Assembly: GCA_956465555.1 (NCBI GenBank)
Contig: OY101122.1
Coordinates: 879,001-943,000, forward strand
From: Nitzschia sp. pyKryTriq1
Taxonomy: Eukaryota > Bacillariophyta > Bacillariophyceae > Bacillariales > Bacillariaceae
Length of the DNA: 64,000 nucleotides
Reading direction: 5' to 3'
Positions 10,923 through 50,345 of the stretch are shown one piece after another (within the stretch, counting starts at the first letter, position 1; each line of letters begins with the position of its first letter). The notes beneath the pieces are model-generated. The model was not told where the DNA came from, ran no database searches, and saw nothing but the letters and a program-made list of their open reading frames with translations. A program made the translations under genes and the position numbers.

Positions 10923-13592
10923 ATGAGTCGTCGTAGAATCCACTATCAGATTGGAGCGCCAGCATTGATTCATTGTGAGAAAATTGACGAGCAATCGTCG
11001 TTCCTTCAAGTTCCTGGTCACAAGTATCCACGACATGACGCGGGAAAAGTAGGAGAGCTCATTCAACGGCGGAACAGGCTTGGGACACGATGGTACTATC
11101 CCTTCGAAGAAACACCCGACAGCAAAAGGCGGAAAAAGAAGCGAGGGCACAAACATACCAAGCCAGATTACACTGAACCCATCTACAGTCAACGGTTAAA
11201 GGAAAGTCGATCCGCTCTCCTGGCACACGCTGACGTTTATCGGGAACTCAGTACCCGCCACATTTTGAAAACTTATGCTTCGTACGATCGACCTTGTGGT
11301 TCAGTCAATTTAGCCAAGAATATTTTTACTACAGATGCCAATCGAGAACCAAAGCTCGAAATGAGGCAAAAGCATTTTACCAGAAAATTGAGTTTACAGC
11401 GTCGAAACAACTCGGACCCTGCATATCTTGCGCCCTTTGGCCATGAGGCACTTGATTACGAAAAGTGTTATGATACGACGCACCCAAAGAAGCATGATTT
11501 CAACGTTGACAAGAGCAAAACTTGTTTGGGACCGAGACCATGGCAAGGAAACTGCTTGCTCTGCCTACCATGTCCTTGCCCAAACTGTCGGTCCGAACCT
11601 AGCTGGTGTCTATTTCATCCGAAAGGTTTTTTGATGGACACTCTTTGCGTTTCCAACCTAATTCCACCCTATGGGAAGGATAATGCCGGTCACATTTTTA
11701 CTGTTTCAGCGTGGCACAAAAATGACCGGAAGAAAGATACCGTAGCGGCGGCTCGGCGCTTTTTTCCGAATGAGCTCTGCTTGGACGAAACGATTGTGGA
11801 AATACAGCAAAGTGGCACGTGGGATTTCGATCACCCGAGTTGCATTTTTGTCGTCCGCACAGCGACCCACATCTCTGTTATCAACGTCTCACTATCGAAA
11901 CCAGATCTTTCCATGCATGATACGATGAGGTCGAAGAGCGATATTGACGACAAGACATGTTGGGGCAACTACATGTTAAAGGAGCATACCCGACTTGATC
12001 TACGATCTCTACTCAGCTCGGTTCCATCCTATAGACCCGTTTCCTTGGCTTGTCACCCAAAATACGGCGACGATTACACCTCCGCCAGGTTTGCTTTTCT
12101 GAGCTACTCCGACCACAATGGAGATCAAAATGTCATCCACCAATTCACAGTCGATGGTGCACACGAAGATCCCACTCCTCACCATATCTCATCACTACGC
12201 TATATTTCATCGATTGATTTTACCAGAACGCATCCCATGTGTCTTTGGTGCGCAGCCTCCTCGTATGTCAGACCCACCTTGGTATCCGAGGTTTACTTTA
12301 GGAAGCATTACCCCTTGGGATTCGGAACCTCGCTATATTCTGTGGATCTACGAAGTAATTCTTCTGTCTTTCAATGGAGTCCTAGTGCTCAAGAAATGAA
12401 ACCAGAAGGTCTCTACTCTATCACTGGTATACTCACAGATTGGGATCGCGATCATACTGTATGGGTTACGTCCAAGTCGGCAGGCAAAACATGGGAAGTC
12501 GATAGTAGAATGCCTTGTCAAGCCGTCAATTCGTGGTCCATTTCTTCTGACTGCGACGTCGATTCCATTTCCTTTCAACAAAGAGGGCCTTATGGGGACG
12601 CTGCTCTCCTAAGCAAGATACGAGAATATTCTGACGGTCGTGTTGGAACTGATTCGAATATGATTTTGAATATGGATACGGCACCCGCATCCTTTGGATT
12701 TGAACTTTTGCAGCGCCCCTGGTGCAAGCCGCGATTTCAAACAGAAAGTTTAGAATGTGTTTCCATTCCGAACTTGGAAAGCTACAACTTGTCAAGCAGC
12801 ATCGCCACGAGCTCTGTTTTCGCCATGCCGGAGAGGGATGAGGACTTGTTTTGTTGTGGGTTGGCCGGTTTCCGTACTCCATTGAATGACTTTGTGACAG
12901 ATGAGGACGCAATGCCCGGAGTCTTTCGGAACAGCGAGGATTCCACTGTTCTCTGCACCATTTCCTTGAACAACAAGGGGGATATGTTCTGCCATTCACT
13001 GCTGGAAACTTCACGAGAGGTATTGGACTGCAAATCGTTTCCTGGGCTGCCGGCTGGTACGGCCGCCATTCCTCTTCCGAAGGAGCTTGATGGAAGAACC
13101 AAGAATACTGAACACAAGTGCTGGAAACCAACAGGTGGAATGAATTTGAAGGTCTTTTGGACTAATCAATATCCAACCCCCCGGGATTCCTTACTTCATA
13201 TCAAGGCCACGACCTCGAAACGAATCCATCTGCCTACGAAGGATGCTACCGATCACTTGTCGTACCAAGCTGGAAACAGCGAAGAGCCCTACCAGGTGAA
13301 GATGCCTACCAGTTCGGGAATTCAAATCGCTGCTCGGTCTGGTTCCGAGTTTGTCAATGCTGATGGAGTTCCACTGGTCATCCCCAAAAAATCGGCTGAC
13401 AAAGCATTTGCCACCCAGCTCAAATTTAGAACCCCAATCACGGACCAAGAGGAGGAGTCAAAACGTGATGATATTATTGGTGACGCACCGTCGGAGCGCC
13501 GATCTGACCTTACTTCGACATTGGTCAAGAAGGTAGCGAACACGTGGGAACTTTGGGAAAAATTAGACGACGACTCGAGCTCGGAGGAGTAG
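10923..13592 (+). CDS. Large orphan protein, beta-propeller-like; faint resemblance to Pol I factor TAF1C/RRN6
   Basis: A single-exon protein of 889 residues counted from the first ATG in the open frame. I do not recognise it firmly. After a basic N-terminus (RRKKKRGHKH near residue 70) there is a Cys-rich patch, CLLCLPCPCPNC at about 200. The middle (about 275-600) alternates short beta-like strings with Trp/Asp turns, for example IFVVRTATHISVINV, FAFLSYSDHNGD, LTDWDRDHTVWVTS. That is reminiscent of degenerate WD/beta-propellers such as those in TAF1C or RRN6 of the Pol I SL1/core factor. The C-terminus is disordered and ends in an acidic Asp/Ser/Glu tail. Neighbours give no clue. Real gene: likely; function: speculative. 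Confidence 0.75.
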   Translation: MSRRRIHYQIGAPALIHCEKIDEQSSFLQVPGHKYPRHDAGKVGELIQRRNRLGTRWYYPFEETPDSKRRKKKRGHKHTKPDYTEPIYSQRLKESRSALLAHADVYRELSTRHILKTYASYDRPCGSVNLAKNIFTTDANREPKLEMRQKHFTRKLSLQRRNNSDPAYLAPFGHEALDYEKCYDTTHPKKHDFNVDKSKTCLGPRPWQGNCLLCLPCPCPNCRSEPSWCLFHPKGFLMDTLCVSNLIPPYGKDNAGHIFTVSAWHKNDRKKDTVAAARRFFPNELCLDETIVEIQQSGTWDFDHPSCIFVVRTATHISVINVSLSKPDLSMHDTMRSKSDIDDKTCWGNYMLKEHTRLDLRSLLSSVPSYRPVSLACHPKYGDDYTSARFAFLSYSDHNGDQNVIHQFTVDGAHEDPTPHHISSLRYISSIDFTRTHPMCLWCAASSYVRPTLVSEVYFRKHYPLGFGTSLYSVDLRSNSSVFQWSPSAQEMKPEGLYSITGILTDWDRDHTVWVTSKSAGKTWEVDSRMPCQAVNSWSISSDCDVDSISFQQRGPYGDAALLSKIREYSDGRVGTDSNMILNMDTAPASFGFELLQRPWCKPRFQTESLECVSIPNLESYNLSSSIATSSVFAMPERDEDLFCCGLAGFRTPLNDFVTDEDAMPGVFRNSEDSTVLCTISLNNKGDMFCHSLLETSREVLDCKSFPGLPAGTAAIPLPKELDGRTKNTEHKCWKPTGGMNLKVFWTNQYPTPRDSLLHIKATTSKRIHLPTKDATDHLSYQAGNSEEPYQVKMPTSSGIQIAARSGSEFVNADGVPLVIPKKSADKAFATQLKFRTPITDQEEESKRDDIIGDAPSERRSDLTSTLVKKVANTWELWEKLDDDSSSEE

Positions 13593-13691: not shown

Positions 13692-16211
13692 TTACTCGGA
13701 CGATGCCTCTTCGCTCGCAGCCGCAATGGAAAGACATGTTGCCGCAAGTTCGATACTTCGCTTCACGTGAGCAATCGAATAACGATTGTCCAACCCCAGA
13801 ACGTATTGCAACAATTCGAGTCGCAGACAAGGGCTGTGCATCCGCTGCACCATCTCATAAATCGCTCGCAAAAATCGAATATCACTGAAATCGGTTTGCA
13901 CTGTAGCTTCTCGCAATTGCTTGGCAAAATTCGTACGATTGGTAATTGCCTTTTTGCTCACAAAGGCCATAAAGCTGCTATTGTTGTCAGTGGCAATTTG
14001 AAGGTCGTCTTGAGCTGCGCGTTGGTCCCGCCAGGATGCCAATCGAAAGGCCATGGACTGCTCGCCATATTCTACCCACTCTTCCACAGCCAGGAAACTC
14101 TCCTCGGTTCTCTTTTTCGCACTCCCATCTTGCATGGCTTTCAATACCTGTGCCGCTCCCAAGACAGCCAAGAGCCCATCCGAGTTAGTGGCACTTCGCA
14201 ACCGATCCGTATCCAAGGGCGGTGGCGGGGGTGGCGGGGGTAGACGACTGTTTCTCGTGGTTACCGTGCCTTCGGTACCCGCTTGGCGTTTCAAAAGCAT
14301 GGTCTCGGAATCGAGAGATTTCTTTCGAATCAGCAATTTGCCATTGTGCCCGTGATCATCGGTAATCTCATCTACGACAGCCTTTTCCGTTTCCGCCTGG
14401 TGACCTTCCGACGCCACGAGGGAATACAAAATTAACAATTGCCGCGAGGTATAGTAATCACCGGAACGAACGGCTGAAGCCAATCCTTCATTAACGATAT
14501 CTTGCAGTCGATGCGCTTCTTCGCCATTTTTCTTTGTGATGCTATCACGCTTGTCTTGATTCATGGCGTCCTTCAATATTTGTGCAATGCTATCGTCCGT
14601 CGCACCAAAGCCCCCGGCCAATCGAACACATTCTTCGGGAGTCAGGGTTTGACGAATGCCCTCGTCCAGATCAATCAGCTCTTCCACTTTGGTTTCCAAG
14701 AAGGATTGATCAGTGTCGTCAATGGTTGTTTTATGTGCGATCATGGGATTCTGAAAGGGGTTGAGATTCTTTGCTGCGATTTTCAAAAGATCTGTTTGTA
14801 ATTTCTCAGTCAAGACTCGAATGCCTTTGTCGGGGGTCATATACAACAAGGGAATCCCCTGAATGTGTGGTTCTCCGAGAACATGGGAAAGACGCGCCCG
14901 TGTTCTCAACAAGGAAATCAAGTGACCGAAGGTGGCGGTCCGCACAAACAAGGCGACGGGCAAACCGACGCCCTTATCGAGAGAACGACCCCTTTGTTCG
15001 AGATCGTTGCGTGGCTTTCCTGTGGCACAGTCCTTTCCATCGACCAGTCGTCCCGGTCCTCCGACGCGAACAAAGACTTCATTGTAAGGAACCGTGTTGA
15101 GTCCTCCTTTCAAGAGCCGGCCCGCGATCATGTATTCCGTTTTCGTGACATAATCGTTGTTGTATTCTCGGAGTGTTTTCAAGGACACCAAAGCCTCCTT
15201 TCGTCCATTGATCAACTCTCCTCGGGAGTCAATGTTAAATTCAGTCTTGGCCGAGTAACCACTGGGCCAGCCCCATGTTCTCGTCCTTTCAACCGCCGCT
15301 GTTTCTTCCTCCCCGCTGGGATATTCGGGAAGAGCAAAGACGACCCCGGTCGTATAATTGGATGGATTGCCAAAACATCGCATTTTGTGGCCTCCCGAGG
15401 GCAAGAGCGATGTGGAGGTGACGAAACTATTAAAGGGATAGTCTTCGTTATTATCACCTTGAGGAGCAATATCGTTGTGATCGTCGTGGTAGCGGCCTCG
15501 GGGTGGCTGTGCTGTTTTGAAACGATGCAAGAAACTGGTCCACTCGGTGTTCTTGATCGTTTTGACGACCGCTCGCTGGGTTTCCAACAAGTGGACTACC
15601 TCTTTTTCAGCAGTTGTCCATTGATTGCCCGTGTGTTCGCGATCAGATACCCAGAGGCGACCAAACTCGTCGCTGGGGCCCAGTTGGAGGTGGGGAAGAG
15701 GCACAATGTTGGGTTGAAAGCCTTCGATTTCGACGCTGAGAGGAGCAGAAGACTGTCCGTCTGGAATAGTACCCAGAGCACCTCCAAAGAGGTTGGACAT
15801 TTCGTTCCATTCCGAGGCGAGATCTTGGGAAATTTCCTTTTCTCGTTCCGAGGAAACATGCTGGTTCTGATAAATCGAGCTGCTGCCTTCCTTCTCCTCC
15901 TCGTTCTCTCTCTTCTGTTTATCCTCGGCTTCAGCGGCTCGTCGAAGATGATCGCGAAAGACGATACTTCTCGCCGATTCGTGATATACTAGAACGGGAG
16001 GAGGCAAGTCCCCATCGTGGTGATGATGGTGATGATGACTGCTTCGGCTGCGGTGTCGGTGGTGTTTCCCCTTGTGGTGTTCGGGATGACTGTCATCCGA
16101 GTGTTCCGAGGAGGCAGACCCTACGGAAACGCTAGATGACTTCGTAGACATGACCGAGTGGACGTGTTTCAATGATACGGGGACACCAGAAAGAGTGGGA
16201 TTCGGAGGCAT
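13692..16211 (-). CDS. Conserved-looking orphan protein with polyHis and polyPro tracts
   Basis: No family recognised. From the first in-frame ATG (16211) the protein is 839 residues, but the same frame is open without an ATG up to about 16620, where it includes a hydrophobic segment FATLAVLSFLS (16434-16402). A spliced upstream exon is therefore likely; an ATG at 16705 opens a different frame (MRMKKKNQ, Ser/Asn-rich) that could feed it through an undetected intron. Visible features: a Ser/His-rich N-terminus with a seven-His run, a charged segment with RRAAEAEDKQKRENEEEKE, a mixed central half with folded character (VALFVRTATFGHLISLLRTRARLSH), an eight-proline run at about residue 663 and a helical C-terminus. 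It converges 99 bp from the preceding gene. Confidence 0.65.
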   Translation of the reverse strand: MPPNPTLSGVPVSLKHVHSVMSTKSSSVSVGSASSEHSDDSHPEHHKGKHHRHRSRSSHHHHHHHDGDLPPPVLVYHESARSIVFRDHLRRAAEAEDKQKRENEEEKEGSSSIYQNQHVSSEREKEISQDLASEWNEMSNLFGGALGTIPDGQSSAPLSVEIEGFQPNIVPLPHLQLGPSDEFGRLWVSDREHTGNQWTTAEKEVVHLLETQRAVVKTIKNTEWTSFLHRFKTAQPPRGRYHDDHNDIAPQGDNNEDYPFNSFVTSTSLLPSGGHKMRCFGNPSNYTTGVVFALPEYPSGEEETAAVERTRTWGWPSGYSAKTEFNIDSRGELINGRKEALVSLKTLREYNNDYVTKTEYMIAGRLLKGGLNTVPYNEVFVRVGGPGRLVDGKDCATGKPRNDLEQRGRSLDKGVGLPVALFVRTATFGHLISLLRTRARLSHVLGEPHIQGIPLLYMTPDKGIRVLTEKLQTDLLKIAAKNLNPFQNPMIAHKTTIDDTDQSFLETKVEELIDLDEGIRQTLTPEECVRLAGGFGATDDSIAQILKDAMNQDKRDSITKKNGEEAHRLQDIVNEGLASAVRSGDYYTSRQLLILYSLVASEGHQAETEKAVVDEITDDHGHNGKLLIRKKSLDSETMLLKRQAGTEGTVTTRNSRLPPPPPPPPLDTDRLRSATNSDGLLAVLGAAQVLKAMQDGSAKKRTEESFLAVEEWVEYGEQSMAFRLASWRDQRAAQDDLQIATDNNSSFMAFVSKKAITNRTNFAKQLREATVQTDFSDIRFLRAIYEMVQRMHSPCLRLELLQYVLGLDNRYSIAHVKRSIELAATCLSIAAASEEASSE

Positions 16212-36550: not shown

Positions 36551-37555
36551 ATGGACGATTACCCGGAAGAAACTCTCAAATTGCGAGTCCAACGAACTGT
36601 TTCCCTCGGGGATAGCTCGCTGAGCGGCGTTAGCAGCAGCACCAATGGTGGAACAAGTGAGAATATCCAGGCCATGGTCCGTTCTACGTCCATGTGGGTC
36701 CTTTTCGGTCTATGCGGATGGTATTTCCCCAAATATTTAGTTTCCGTGGACGATTCCATCGTTTCCAAGACACCGCCATATCAAGTCACTGCTGCGGGGG
36801 ACGTGATACTGGATTTTGCTCTCAATGAAAAGGTGGTGGACCCAGTGATTGTTTCAGGTGATTCTTTGGTGGAACAAGTATGTGACTATCTTTGAATTTC
36901 ATTTCTCACTTCTAAAATTCCAACCACTCAACCAATAGGCGAATTACTCAAGATGACGGGCGTGTATCTTCCATTTTTCATTACAGTGTTGCATTCTTTT
37001 CTGTCATCTCGTCGGTCGCATAAATCGATGTGTTTGTTGGAGGTACTCACGGTGATTGCAAGTTTTTCCATGGCAATTGGTCTGTCGGAAGGGACAACGC
37101 AATTACTGAAACTTTGGGTTCAACGACGGAGACCGAATTTCTATGACCTTTGCGGATTCAATACCAAAACGCTTCAGTGCACAGCGACCAAGGCCCTCAT
37201 CCAGGAGGCGAATTTCAGTTTTCCGTCGGGTCATTCGAGCATGTCTTGCTGTGGCATGACCTTTCTGGTGTGGTACTTTCTAGGAAAAGTCAAGAGCCAA
37301 CGACGTTGGATGACTTTTCTTATAGCAGTGGTGCCATGGGGTTGGTCCATTTTTGTCGCAGGCTCGCGACTGGTGGACAAGTGGCATCATCCGTCTGATG
37401 TCGTTGCAGGCTTGGGATTGGGATTCGCGACTTGCACGTTATCCTATCATACATGGTATTCACCCATGTGGTCAACCTCGGCCGGTATCCCACGGCCAAT
37501 GTCAGATGAGCTAGATCCGAGTGGCAACACTAAACTCGCTTCCTTCAACGAATAA
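36551..37555 (+). CDS. PAP2-family phosphatidate/lipid phosphatase, two exons
   Basis: Integral-membrane lipid phosphatase. All three catalytic blocks are present: KLWVQRRRP (C1), PSGHSS (C2) and SRLVDKWHHPSDVVAG (C3), with the nucleophilic His in C3. Six hydrophobic segments are visible. Preferred exons are 36551-36857 and 36939-37555 (307 residues): donor CAG/GTGATT and the first downstream acceptor CAATAG, giving VSGELLKMTGVYLP. This keeps the 14-residue spacing from the V-S/P turn to the P of TM3 that I recall in plant and yeast homologues. An alternative uses the stronger donor GTATGT at 36878 with acceptor CTCAAG ending at 36952, giving LVEQMTGVYLP. The simple pairing of GTATGT with CAATAG would stop the frame, so this junction needs transcript support. 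Confidence 0.88.
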
Positions 37556-37625: not shown

Positions 37626-39617
37626 CTAGTCATCCTCGTCGTCGTCGTCGTCGCTAAAGGCTGCAAGGTCCATGTTACCAAAGTTGCAAGCGTCAAACAT
37701 GGAAGTTGTCTCAGCCGACTTCGTGCCAATACCCCCTGCTTCATCTGAGTCTGCGTCTTTGTCGCTGTCTTCCGATTCGCGCGGTGGCTCTGTCGAGAGC
37801 AGTCTCTCTGTTGTTTCGGATAGTTCAGCGCGCTCGACTCCTTGCCGGAGACGATTCTCAGTGTTACCGTCGTCGTCATCACTCCGGTCGTCCTCATCCA
37901 GCATCGAGTTCCAATATGATGAATTCTGAGACGAAGCTTTCCATGCAGTGGCCATTGGTGACATTTGACTTTTGGAACGTCGCGGCCGCCGTTCCAATTG
38001 TGTCTCGGCAGCGTCGCCATTTTCTTCATTTATTTGCGTCTTCTCAACCAAAACTTCTTGTTCCTGCCTCGATCGAACAGGCTTCTCACTACGAGTGGTA
38101 TCCTGTGGCTCCCTGATCTTGCTAGCTTCCAAGGAGGGCAACTGTACAATATCTTGACTGGTGGCAGCTGTCAGCTGAGTGGAACTTGCACCATCATAAT
38201 TACTTGTTCCACGGTTCGCATTCAAAGAAGTCGTGGGCAAACAAGTCTCTTCGGTAACTTCTTCCAGCCTCGGTCGGCTCCAACTATTGTGAGTAAAGTC
38301 CTGAGTCGCCGGTCGTGAACTCAACTGAGACTGAGACACGGCCAAGCTGCATGAGTGTTGTCGTGACGAAGGTAAAATAGCGGATGTTGCATTCCAAAGT
38401 CCTCCAACTGAATGACGTCCTCGTGGTTCAAATTGTTCCTCGTCCTCCTCGGAATCATCATTTGCATTCTCTGGATGATTTGTGGGTGTAGGAAGATGTG
38501 AGCCTTCCATTTGCTCTTCGAAATTGCCCCCAAATCCGTTTCGCCGAGGATTTCTACTAATTGAGTCGTACTCTTTCTCTTCGTCGGGCGGACCGTCCTC
38601 TTCTTCTTCATCCTCCTCCTCCATGTCGGCACTTCCACTGGCACTCGCCGATGATGATTCTTCCGAGGGAGTATGTATTAACGGCAAGGCCTTGCGTCGT
38701 TCCATCCAATCCAAAAACTGACGCTGTCGCCTGGGCGTATCCGTTTCTTCCTGTTGATTCTTCTGCTGCTGCTCAGGGGTCCAAACTTTTTCAATCGCCG
38801 AACCCCCAATAAGCAGCATGCGTTCCAGTCGTTCTTCTTCGTCATGGTCATCGTCGTCATCGTCGTCTTGTCGTTCTAACAATACCATACCGAACTGACG
38901 GAGCCGCCAGACGACTCCCGGTCGAATAATACTGGATTCGAGGGGTTGCTGCAGCTGTTGTTGCACCAAACTCGGTTCCACCCAGGCTTTGATCGCCGCC
39001 CCCGTTTCATCCTTCAATTCGACGGTCCAAATGTTGTGATGAATATGTGATTCCACCGTGGACACCAAAACCAACAGCGATGTTTCGGCATTGCTGCTGC
39101 TGCTGCTGCTATTACTAGAAAGACCAAATTGATCGTGGTCACCTCGTTGAATTTCCAACAGTAGTACAAAGTTGGGTGGCATGTGGGGGCGCAGTTGTCG
39201 ATATCGTTCCAAAGGCTTCGTCATGCTGGGTGGAAGGTACGGAGTGATCAAATTCAACTCTTGTAGCATGCTGGACCACGCCGGCGAAAAGCTCATGTCC
39301 GCGGCGGCCAAGGACGACGGCGATTTGCCTTGTTGTTGATGACGATGATGATGATGATGATGATGATTAGGGGAGGAGGATTGCGAATGCTGCCGTGAGG
39401 AGGGTGGGGCCCAGGCATTCTCTGCTGCTGCTGTCGTCGTCGTCAGTGAAGCTTCGTGTTGGCTACGCTTGCGGCTGCTGGAACCTGTCGCATTGGTCGA
39501 AGAACTTCCGCCGCCGCCGCCAGCGGCTTGTTTGTTCAATTGTTGTTGGCTCTGAAACCAGATTCCACAAGGGCCCGGTGGCATGTGGCGTTTGCGGTGG
39601 TTGGTAGCTTTTCTCAT
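37626..39617 (-). CDS. HROB-like OB-fold protein (MCM8-MCM9 partner family)
   Basis: 663 residues, single exon, clean ATG. The region at about residues 12-295 resembles the conserved domain of HROB (C17orf53/MCM8IP): a short PGPCGIWF element, then after a Ser/His-rich linker FSPAWSSMLQELNL, PPNFVLLLEIQR, a beta-rich core LLVLVSTVESHIHHNIWTVELKDETGAAIKAWV, GVVWRLRQFGMVLLER and MLLIGGSAIEKVW. The order (P-G-P-x-G, W-x-x-M-L-x-E-L, OB strands, G-x-x-W/L-x-L-x-x, L-x-x-x-x-x-x-x-K/Q-V/W) is that of the family. HROB loads and activates the MCM8-MCM9 helicase in homologous recombination and interstrand crosslink repair. The rest is acidic, Ser/Glu-rich and disordered, ending in an Asp-rich tail. 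Identification is by pattern memory only; an unrelated OB-fold protein is the alternative. Confidence 0.7.
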   Translation of the reverse strand: MRKATNHRKRHMPPGPCGIWFQSQQQLNKQAAGGGGGSSSTNATGSSSRKRSQHEASLTTTTAAAENAWAPPSSRQHSQSSSPNHHHHHHHRHQQQGKSPSSLAAADMSFSPAWSSMLQELNLITPYLPPSMTKPLERYRQLRPHMPPNFVLLLEIQRGDHDQFGLSSNSSSSSSNAETSLLVLVSTVESHIHHNIWTVELKDETGAAIKAWVEPSLVQQQLQQPLESSIIRPGVVWRLRQFGMVLLERQDDDDDDDHDEEERLERMLLIGGSAIEKVWTPEQQQKNQQEETDTPRRQRQFLDWMERRKALPLIHTPSEESSSASASGSADMEEEDEEEEDGPPDEEKEYDSISRNPRRNGFGGNFEEQMEGSHLPTPTNHPENANDDSEEDEEQFEPRGRHSVGGLWNATSAILPSSRQHSCSLAVSQSQLSSRPATQDFTHNSWSRPRLEEVTEETCLPTTSLNANRGTSNYDGASSTQLTAATSQDIVQLPSLEASKIREPQDTTRSEKPVRSRQEQEVLVEKTQINEENGDAAETQLERRPRRSKSQMSPMATAWKASSQNSSYWNSMLDEDDRSDDDDGNTENRLRQGVERAELSETTERLLSTEPPRESEDSDKDADSDEAGGIGTKSAETTSMFDACNFGNMDLAAFSDDDDDEDD

Positions 39618-40338: not shown

Positions 40339-41445
40339 ATGGAGCAGCCACTTTATGACGATGATCACGCCGAGCAGAATGGAACTGGTGCCCTGCCGGG
40401 CCTACGAGTACCGGAACGACCACAATCGATGAACGAGCAGGATGATAATATCAGTTTCTCTGCTGAATCGCAGCAGTCTCACACGCCACGCACCAAAGTC
40501 TCGCTCCCCGATATTGACGACAATTCCATGAATGCCGTCTTTACCTATATTGACTTTTATCAGAAAAATCTCGCGTGGTCCTTCATAAGCGACTCTTTCT
40601 TTCTTGTTGGGGGTATTTTGTACGTTGTCCTTTCCATTGTTGATTGGTGCGAGAGTCATGAACAACAGTCGCCGTTGTCGGAAAATCGTCGAACCATCCT
40701 CGAAACCATCGCTCCTTTGGCCTACGTGTTCAACAGTGCCATTGATATTCAATGGTCTCGTCATGAGCAGCGCCTTCGGAAAAAGAAAACCCAACTGCAA
40801 CATCAGTTTTTGCAACGGCAGCTGCAGCAAGAAGAAGACGCAGTGAGGACCGAAGCGTTCATTCGAGAAATCCAAGACGTTGCTGCGTCTCACATGGAAT
40901 GGATCTGCCGGTATGCCGCCCATCGACGAACGCTTCTAGCGGCTGTTACTTTCGGGATCGCCGCCATTTTGGATTTCTTGGACCTGTTTATCGATTCGGA
41001 CATTTGTGGCGCCTTGTCGGTGCACGCGTATCTTGTCAGTGCCATCGTATGCGTATCGGGAGAGCGTGATCGACCATGGTTTACTCGCATCAAAACCATC
41101 CTCAATAGCTCTTACTCCCAACCAGAACAAGACCAGTATCAGGAACAAGAACACCAACAGGATCAAAGACGGAAAGGAACGATTGTTTCACCAACTATCA
41201 TCAAGAAATTGAATATTTGGAACAGCGGGGAGATACTGGAAGATGCCGGGGACCTGCTGTTCTTAATTGGTAGTCTTCTTGATGCTACACTGTTGGATCT
41301 CGGGTTGGAGCACCCATTTTTGGCCATTGTATCCTCGCTGCTGTGGTTAATGGATGCCTGTTTATACTTGCTGGCCGATTTTGTCATGTCCAAGAGAGAG
41401 CGGAATCCAAACGCTCTACTTGATGAGTCCTTCGTGTTCGTGTAA
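40339..41445 (+). CDS. Multipass membrane orphan protein
   Basis: 368 residues, one exon, family not recognised. A polar N-terminus of about 80 residues precedes several hydrophobic helices: LAWSFISDSFFLVGGILYVVLSIV, ETIAPLAYVFNSAI, LLAAVTFGIAAILDFLDLFI, ALSVHAYLVSAIVCV, ILEDAGDLLFLIGSLLDATLL and LAIVSSLLWLMDACLYLLADFVM. Two of these carry similar patterns, (D/S)xxFLxGxxLxxxL, suggesting an internal duplication. A charged coiled-coil-like loop (QFLQRQLQQEEDAVRTEAFIREI) separates helices 2 and 3, and a Gln/Glu/Asp-rich loop separates helices 4 and 5. Cellular membrane and function unknown. The preceding gene is divergent; the following gene is on the same strand 1.1 kb away. Confidence 0.8.
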   Translation: MEQPLYDDDHAEQNGTGALPGLRVPERPQSMNEQDDNISFSAESQQSHTPRTKVSLPDIDDNSMNAVFTYIDFYQKNLAWSFISDSFFLVGGILYVVLSIVDWCESHEQQSPLSENRRTILETIAPLAYVFNSAIDIQWSRHEQRLRKKKTQLQHQFLQRQLQQEEDAVRTEAFIREIQDVAASHMEWICRYAAHRRTLLAAVTFGIAAILDFLDLFIDSDICGALSVHAYLVSAIVCVSGERDRPWFTRIKTILNSSYSQPEQDQYQEQEHQQDQRRKGTIVSPTIIKKLNIWNSGEILEDAGDLLFLIGSLLDATLLDLGLEHPFLAIVSSLLWLMDACLYLLADFVMSKRERNPNALLDESFVFV

Positions 41446-47971: not shown

Positions 47972-50345
47972 TCAGAACTCGTCATGTGAGTCTGCCTGAG
48001 TTTCTGATCGAAGGGCATATTCTGAAACTGTCGTTTTCAGGTTGTAGTTTACCTGGTCCCCAATCAATTTCACAAGAGGCTGCAGGTGATCTTCATATTT
48101 CCGCCACGCTTGAAGACTATCGGTGTAAATGCCCTTCCGAACTTGTGTTGTAGACAAAGTGTTGACAGCCTGCTTTTTCTTATGAAAGTCGAGAATCTCA
48201 TCGTGCCATTCTAGCCCCGTAGCATCGATTACCGCTCTGGAGACACCCGGCATGTCGCGGACCATGTCTTCGTATCGAATGTGCTTCACACGGCCAGGCA
48301 ACACGCGGTCCCAATGTTCCATGACGTCCCGATATCCATGATAGAGTTCAGCAAGACTGTCAAACGAAGACGTATAGTCCAACGGACCTGGAGGAAATTC
48401 ATGCTTGTAGGCAGAAAAGATCGTATCCATCGGCTCTCGCGCTACGTGAAGAATTAGTGCATTCGGAAAAAGCATATGAATGAAACCGACGTCTGTGGCA
48501 ACAGCGAAAACAGAAGTTAAAAGTCGGCTCTCTCATGAAAGTCTTGATTTCAATACCGCGAGAAAGCGACTTACTGTAGTAATTTGTCAACATTTTGTCC
48601 ACGTATTTTCGCGGCTTGGGGCGACCAGCGGCTCGATCTTCGTTCGAAGCGACCATGTCCCAGCGCTTTTCCATCTCAGACACAACTCCATCGGCTAATC
48701 TTTCAATCTCGTCCTTTAGTGCATTTTGATCTCCGCTCATACTTGTTTGCACGATTTTGTTACGAATTTCGTCAAGTTGCCCGTTGAAGACCGAGTTTTC
48801 TCCTGTTCCAACAATTTCCGGATGAGCATCAAGGATTCGTTCCAGCAAAGTTGAACCACTGCGCACAAATCCAATGATGAAAATAGGGGTATCACTCGTA
48901 CTCCCGACGTCGGGCCAGAAGCCCGCGTGGAAAATTTGCTTGGTGGCTTGAATTTTCTGTGCTTCAAATCCGGCATTCCATGGTGGAAGGCTCTTCATTT
49001 TGAATTTATATGCATTGGTCAAGCTGCTCCATGCAGCATCGGTGTCTTTTGTCTTGGCGTCGTGGTAGATGAACAGAACATGATACAGCCTAGCCAGGGA
49101 AGTTCCCACCAATGCTTGTCCTCCTGGATGCTGTATCGTATCATGTTGACTCTGAAGTACCGGGATAAGTTCCTCCAGGCTTCGAATCATAGGATCCCAG
49201 CCTCGTGTCGACGACCCCTCTTTAGCTTGAAGAACTCTTGCCAGGCCCGTAAACGCATCCATGAATCTTCTCTTGGAATCTCTTTCAATGACCGTTTCAA
49301 AATCTGTGGCGGCTTCTTGATATCTCCCCAAGATAATCAACGAGGAGCCTCGAGCTGAAACGGCGTCAAGGTAGAGAGGTTCAATCTTGATTGCCTCAGT
49401 GTACGATGCGACAGCCTTTTCAAACATGTTGCTCATAAAGTATACTTTGCCAAGAGCTGTGTGGAGGGCGCAAATAATTCCATCTATGCTTCTCGCGGTG
49501 TAGTCTAGAGTGATCTCTTCGTTGACATCCACAATACCTGACAGAGCTCTGTTCGTTTCTTCACCAGCATCTATTGTCTTTTGGCGCTTCTGTAACGCCA
49601 ATTTCAATGCATGCTGGTACGTAGTAATGGCTTCTTCCTGCATTGAGCCACCATCGTGATATTGCACATCATACATCCTGAGTCCATCGGCAAACCGCAT
49701 GGCGTTGATGAGATTTGAAGTATCAGACTGCATAAAGCAAAATGGTCAGGTGCACATGACAACAATGAGGAAAGAAAAGAGAAAGTCTCAATCGCGACTT
49801 ACCTGATACTCCTGCCGGAACTGATCTATCTGCCGAAGCAATTCCAATCGGGCAGGATCACTGGATGCACCTCGGGCAGGTGTTGGAGTAGCCTTCTGTG
49901 CTTCCTTTGCCTCGGAATTGCTCTGTTGCGGTCGTTCTTCACGGCGGGTTTTCTCTTTAGCTTTCACACTGGGAGGGATATATGTTGAAGAAAAGTCCAG
50001 CCGTCGACGCTCGATCGTCTTGACGACCTCTTGATAACTGAAGGGTTTGTTGGACAAAAACGCGGAGGACGATCCATCCGGCGAAGTGTGCGGCGAGGAC
50101 TTGGAGGAAGATGTTTCATCAACGATCGGGGGAGCAGCTGCCTTCTTCGGGGCCGCTTGCTCACCTCCGTCAAAGCTCAATGAGACCGGGCGCGACTGAT
50201 GGGGCAAAAAGGCAGGACCCGTGTCGACTGCGAAACGGGTCAAAATGGCAATGCAAAGCATTGGCAAAATCCAAAAGATCCCAACGGACAGCGGCACCGA
50301 GTTCGAGTCAACTGGGTCACTTTCCTTCTGCTTTGACCTCTCCAT
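47972..50345 (-). CDS. TPR-containing sulfotransferase, type II membrane protein, three exons
   Basis: Golgi-type sulfotransferase of 738 residues that should transfer sulfate from PAPS to a protein or glycan. Exons 50345-49803, 49727-48575 and 48492-47972; introns 75 and 82 bp (donors GTAAGTCG both; acceptors TTATGCAG and TGCCACAG). The second join gives NYYNVGFIHMLFPNALILHVAREPMDT, the 3'-phosphate-binding block. Architecture: short cytosolic tail, signal anchor (LSVGIFWILPMLCIAILTRFAV, about 18-40), a disordered stem, TPR-like helices with ALGKVYFMSNMFEKAVASYTEAIKIEP (about 270-300), then the sulfotransferase domain with the 5'-phosphosulfate loop FVRSGSTLLERILDAHPEI. The combination resembles bacterial and algal TPR-sulfotransferases and, more distantly, tyrosylprotein sulfotransferases. 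The acceptor is unknown; sulfated cell-wall polysaccharides or proteins would fit a diatom. Confidence 0.88.

Follow-up and report, generated by a model that had tools for sequence, protein, structure and literature searches.

A candidate HROB homologue with an interrupted OB-type core in the diatom Nitzschia sp. pyKryTriq1

The gene described here lies on the minus strand of a 64,000-nucleotide stretch of contig OY101122.1 (positions 879,001 to 943,000) from the diatom Nitzschia sp. pyKryTriq1, referred to below as the window. Its features are collected in Table 1. The frame runs for 691 amino acids from stop to stop and ends on a stop codon at the end of the annotated gene. When the six frames were compared, bias over all codons, a measure that takes in amino-acid make-up, was highest in the annotated frame (0.155, against 0.034 or less in the other five), whereas synonymous codon bias alone did not discriminate (0.023 versus up to 0.050 in the others). 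The gene is flanked by a PAP2-family gene (36896-37552, plus strand) and by an open reading frame without a Pfam match (40339-41442, plus strand). Elsewhere in the window, an open reading frame at 48402-49733 (minus strand) encodes TPR repeats and, after them, a sulfotransferase-family domain, and two long frames, at 10923-13589 (plus strand, 889 aa) and 13695-16211 (minus strand, 839 aa), have no Pfam match at E 0.001.

Table 1. Features of the HROB-like gene and its protein, in window coordinates
Feature	Residues	Position	Strand	Remarks
HROB-like gene		37626..39617	minus	Single open frame, 663 aa plus stop (translation; codon bias)
PGPCGIW, candidate MCM8-binding element	14-20	39558..39578	minus	Likened to human HROB 396-413 (human letters approximate)
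Low-complexity spacer	31-100	39318..39527	minus	Gly/Ser/His/Gln runs
W-x-x-M-x-x-x-L-x-L element	114-123	39249..39278	minus	Upstream of OB core; region helical in one low-confidence model
Ser-rich loop	166-176	39090..39122	minus	
HROB/DUF4539 OB-type core (candidate)	180-279	38781..39080	minus	PF15072 positions 6 to 82-85 of 85 once insertions are excised
Insertion 1 in core, LQQPLE	222-227	38937..38954	minus	As cut in the best versions
Insertion 2 in core, acidic, QDDDDDDDHDEEER	250-263	38829..38870	minus	
Long acidic C-terminal tail	280-663	37629..38780	minus	Ends AFSDDDDDEDD

The assembly that contains the window measures 40.65 Mb in 20 contigs and gave eight silicon-transporter matches, at least 153 matches to the HSF DNA-binding domain and 72 to chlorophyll-binding proteins, some of the last being exons of one gene; silicon transporters together with an HSF expansion are a diatom signature. 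Several HSF and chlorophyll-binding matches at about 4.23-4.33 Mb of contig C1 are paired, with equal scores and near-equal spacing, with others at about 3.09-3.20 Mb of contig C3, as if a segment of about 100 kb were present twice, through duplication or through assembly.

A preliminary description of this DNA had singled out a PGPxG element, a W-x-x-M-L-x-E-L stretch and a core motif, set in an otherwise low-complexity protein, and all of these are present in the translation: PGPCGI occupies residues 14-19, WSSMLQEL residues 114-121 and LLIGGSAIEKVW residues 268-279, the rest of the protein being low-complexity tracts of Ser, His, Gln and Asp/Glu. The PGPCGIW stretch resembles the MCM8-binding region of human HROB, the human letters compared being approximate, and the W-x-x-M-x-x-x-L-x-L element matches the human stretch that precedes the OB domain. 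The order PGPxGI, W..M and then OB core is also the order in human HROB. Shuffling of the protein produced PGPxG[ILVM] in 81 of 100,000 copies, W..M...L.L in 136 of 100,000 and PGPxG[ILVM] with a later W..M in 13 of 100,000, figures that overstate the surprise since the motifs were chosen after the sequence had been seen; W..M alone is frequent (25,704 of 100,000 shuffles) and has a second copy at residue 569. The human MCM8-binding element has been placed at HROB 396-413, a stretch containing L405, in PMC7290032 and PMC11055865, whereas the diatom module begins at residue 14.

The OB-type core was compared with Pfam (24,736 families) by hmmscan. HROB was found with none of the 13 unedited queries, which comprised the whole protein, three native stretches and nine shorter native pieces (seven of them touching the core), 11 of the 13 including the core in part or in full. 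Once the insertions were cut out, PF15072 (HROB, formerly DUF4539) became the best-scoring family in 10 of 14 edited versions, made in three batches in which it was found in 1 of 3, 6 of 8 and 3 of 3. The HROB-like assignment of the preliminary description is upheld by the profile after excision, while the unedited protein gives it no such match. The best edited version reached 31.0 bits (E 2.6e-7, profile positions 6-85 of 85) and the next 29.9 bits; the curated cut-off of 30.8 was passed by the first alone, by a margin of 0.2 bits. Removal of the acidic run alone gave 18.4 bits, and removal of just five residues from the first insertion (QPLES) gave 18.1 bits. The four edited versions in which PF15072 was missed include one that was X-masked and one with three extra leading residues, so that whether the profile is detected turns on how the sequence is edited and on the HMMER filters, the match sitting near the filter limit.

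The excisions were chosen by eye, which raises the question of whether the PF15072 match is a product of guided editing and the gene encodes an unrelated disordered, low-complexity protein, as the lack of an HROB match for the unedited sequence might suggest. Cuts placed by a script, guided by the approximate human sequence, fall elsewhere than the by-eye cuts and yield a poorer version, in which PF15072 is still the best match (14.8 bits, E 0.028), and the single-cut versions match HROB too. HROB was found in none of nine copies of an excised version (eight shuffled, one reversed) and in none of seven script-cut decoys (five shuffles and two windows of other open reading frames, all high pairwise scorers), that is in 0 of 16 decoys, against E-values down to 2.6e-7 over all the Pfam families for the diatom sequence.

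Direct comparison with the approximate human HROB domain is less telling. The unedited core gave a pairwise score of 34, reached in 189 of 2,000 shuffles, and one excised version gave 46, reached in 1 of 5,000. When two cuts were left free, the native core scored 62, a value equalled or exceeded in 8 of 1,500 shuffles and in 5 of 764 windows of other open reading frames within the 64 kb. Free cutting by itself brings high chance scores (shuffle mean 44.7, maximum 73), which speaks for an effect of excision, and these tests are only mildly significant, leaving the similarity to the approximate human domain marginal. As pairwise similarity is weak, the case for membership of the HROB family is made by the profile match together with the motifs that lie beyond the Pfam domain. 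With the decoy results set beside the chance scores, we regard an excision artefact on an unrelated protein as highly improbable.

The insertions themselves are in frame, and the DNA of the second contains no GT dinucleotide, which excludes an intron with a GT donor. Both appear to be parts of the diatom core without a counterpart in the approximate human HROB domain. A PF15072 profile search of the whole genome gave no match, as insertions within the core predict. With the core as query, the genome returned the core itself and three weaker matches, whose alignments consist largely of Ser and Asp runs and which were not accepted as relatives; relatives sought in viral contigs gave none.

A different OB-fold protein, one that binds single-stranded DNA or acts at telomeres or in replication (RPA-, SPATA22-, SHLD2- or CST-like), could share with HROB a generic OB pattern only. 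The marginal pairwise similarity leaves room for such a protein, as does the outcome of structure prediction. Two single-sequence AlphaFold models of native pieces were of very low confidence (mean pLDDT 41.7 and 39.1), the first with helices at residues 112-127 and 130-145 (pLDDT about 50-60 there) followed by strands, the second with five strands, a short helix standing between the third and the fourth. The elements of each model fit part of the HROB OB region, but at such low confidence they count for little, and the 193 Foldseek matches to the second model include none at E 0.001 or less. The 'OB-type beta core' proposed earlier is backed by the profile on edited sequence and finds no support in structure prediction, no confident fold having been obtained. 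OB proteins with disordered flanks are moreover described as a recurrent type in PMC11377751, and SPATA22, SHLD2, SPIDR and RPA share with the diatom protein a putative OB domain and such flanks.

Against another OB-fold identity, no other OB-fold family appeared among the Pfam matches of any query, native or edited, from the HROB-like protein, in which respect it differs from SPATA22, SHLD2, SPIDR and RPA; in addition, the PGPxGI and W..M elements, which lie outside the OB domain, would be left unexplained. The approximate human HROB domain, used as a positive control, scored 111 bits on PF15072, indicating that the tool works and that the human sequence used is close to the true one, and itself also listed the tRNA_anti-codon OB family weakly. 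Weak listings of Herpes_UL32 (E 0.018 to 0.24) and SH3-A_UBE2O (E 0.54) were taken as chance or composition. Three PDB chains matched the core at E 0.28 to 1.4, which we put down to its acidic run or to chance, and the same search with the approximate human domain returned no HROB chain. Overall, an OB-fold protein of another family seems an unlikely identity for this gene.

HROB activates the MCM8-MCM9 DNA-repair helicase, and both partners are encoded in the same genome, a point that the preliminary description had proposed to check. A PF00493 search gave 16 matches, 14 of which make up eight MCM loci; the other two (26.3 and 24 bits) were rejected as MCMs, lying by inspection in Mg-chelatase-like proteins. 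In PDB searches, the best matches of the locus at C1:1392033-1394765 were MCM8 chains (409.9 bits), the next protein scoring 287.8; this locus also carries the winged-helix domain of MCM8 at 32.2 bits, above the cut-off of 26. The MCM9 locus, C1:2568235-2570935, which was read as two exons by inspection, scored 329.4 bits on its first exon, against 226.3 for the next protein. The remaining six loci are MCM2-7 by inspection only, and the MCM6-like one (C9:2041500-2048500) contains a long stretch of N. As far as its two exons show, MCM9 ends shortly past the AAA-lid domain and so would lack the long C-terminal extension seen in the human protein; it has an insertion of about 70 residues directly before the Walker A region. 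Neither a better match to an unrelated OB-fold family nor a lack of MCM8 and MCM9, the two results named beforehand as speaking against HROB, was encountered.

Contacts of the OB domain with MCM9 and of the tail with MCM8 are mapped in PMC11055865. The human MCM8 contact L387 aligns with diatom I428, keeping an apolar residue, and the MCM9 contact M45 aligns with F77 (numbered from the Met; residue 78 of the query), also apolar, although the alignment there is insignificant (-2.3 bits). On the HROB side, aligned by hand to the approximate human letters, F553 aligns with V245 and L405 with W20, the diatom residues differing from the human ones but remaining apolar.

The ends of the protein are charged differently from those of human HROB, in which RPA is contacted through N-terminal acidic motifs. 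The diatom protein has no acidic N-terminus (residues 1-60 hold nine K/R and one D/E) and instead has a long acidic C-terminal tail (87 D/E versus 39 K/R in residues 281-663), which is possibly an RPA-binding tail. This arrangement could also be read as that of a true HROB homologue that has exchanged its role with MCM8-MCM9 for a different one, such as in ordinary replication, a reading in line with the absence of acidic RPA motifs from its N-terminus and with the association of human HROB with replisome components noted in PMC11675949. The presence of both MCM8 and MCM9 in the genome, and of a PGPxGI element like that assigned to MCM8 binding, argues against such a change of role, to which we give a low probability.

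Taken as a whole, these observations make it very probable that the diatom gene is an HROB homologue, a judgement which includes the case of a homologue with another job, and it is most likely a missed, insertion-ridden diatom HROB orthologue. With HROB (MCM8IP, C17orf53) it shares a PF15072 core after excision, PGPxGI and W..M elements upstream in the order of the human protein, low-complexity flanks with acidic patches, and a genome that holds MCM8 and MCM9; the insertions within the OB core set it apart. As an HROB orthologue, the protein would most likely bind MCM8 through its N-terminal PGPxGI element, and its HROB-type OB domain would dock on the MCM9 N-terminal domain; acting together, element and domain would stimulate MCM8-MCM9 helicase activity in homologous recombination after the RAD51 step and in the repair of crosslinks. 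Its acidic C-terminal tail may contact RPA.

One study reported the co-occurrence of MCM8IP, MCM8 and MCM9, its sampling covering opisthokonts, amoebozoa and green plants (PMC7290032). A 2024 survey using BlastP, PSI-BLAST, HMMER, Ensembl, NCBI and Pfam reports HROB homologues in all main eukaryotic groups and states that its search of red algae and diatoms met with no success (PMC11675949). The earlier suggestion of an HROB outside animals and plants therefore gains a candidate here but is not new as such, given homologues across eukaryotes; the new element is that the candidate comes from diatoms, a group named there as lacking HROB. Literature searches for HROB or C17orf53 in diatoms, Phaeodactylum and stramenopiles yielded, judged by titles, no description of a diatom HROB. 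The two helicase subunits were already known in diatoms, according to PMC4647503 and PMC2667178, and in the former MCM8 and MCM9 appeared upregulated in Seminavis robusta meiosis, and DMC1 and HOP2 are reported missing from diatoms.

A diatom HROB was probably overlooked because insertions break up its OB core, and insertions inside a domain may thus be a reason for which HROB orthologues are missed. The 2024 survey counts diatoms as HROB-less and infers repeated loss (PMC11675949), and the present candidate, in a diatom that retains MCM8 and MCM9, would remove one such mismatch. More broadly, diatoms may never have lost HROB, which low-complexity insertions would hide by interrupting its OB core; the losses reported for diatoms, and perhaps for other groups, would then be search artefacts; we put this forward tentatively, as a proposal with a real chance of being right though the balance lies somewhat against it. 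Since diatoms are reported to lack DMC1 and HOP2 and to keep MCM8 and MCM9 (PMC4647503), HROB-MCM8-MCM9 would under that proposal be a main helper of a RAD51-only meiotic recombination. With a candidate gene in hand, the MCM8-MCM9-HROB axis becomes testable in a lineage reported to be without DMC1.
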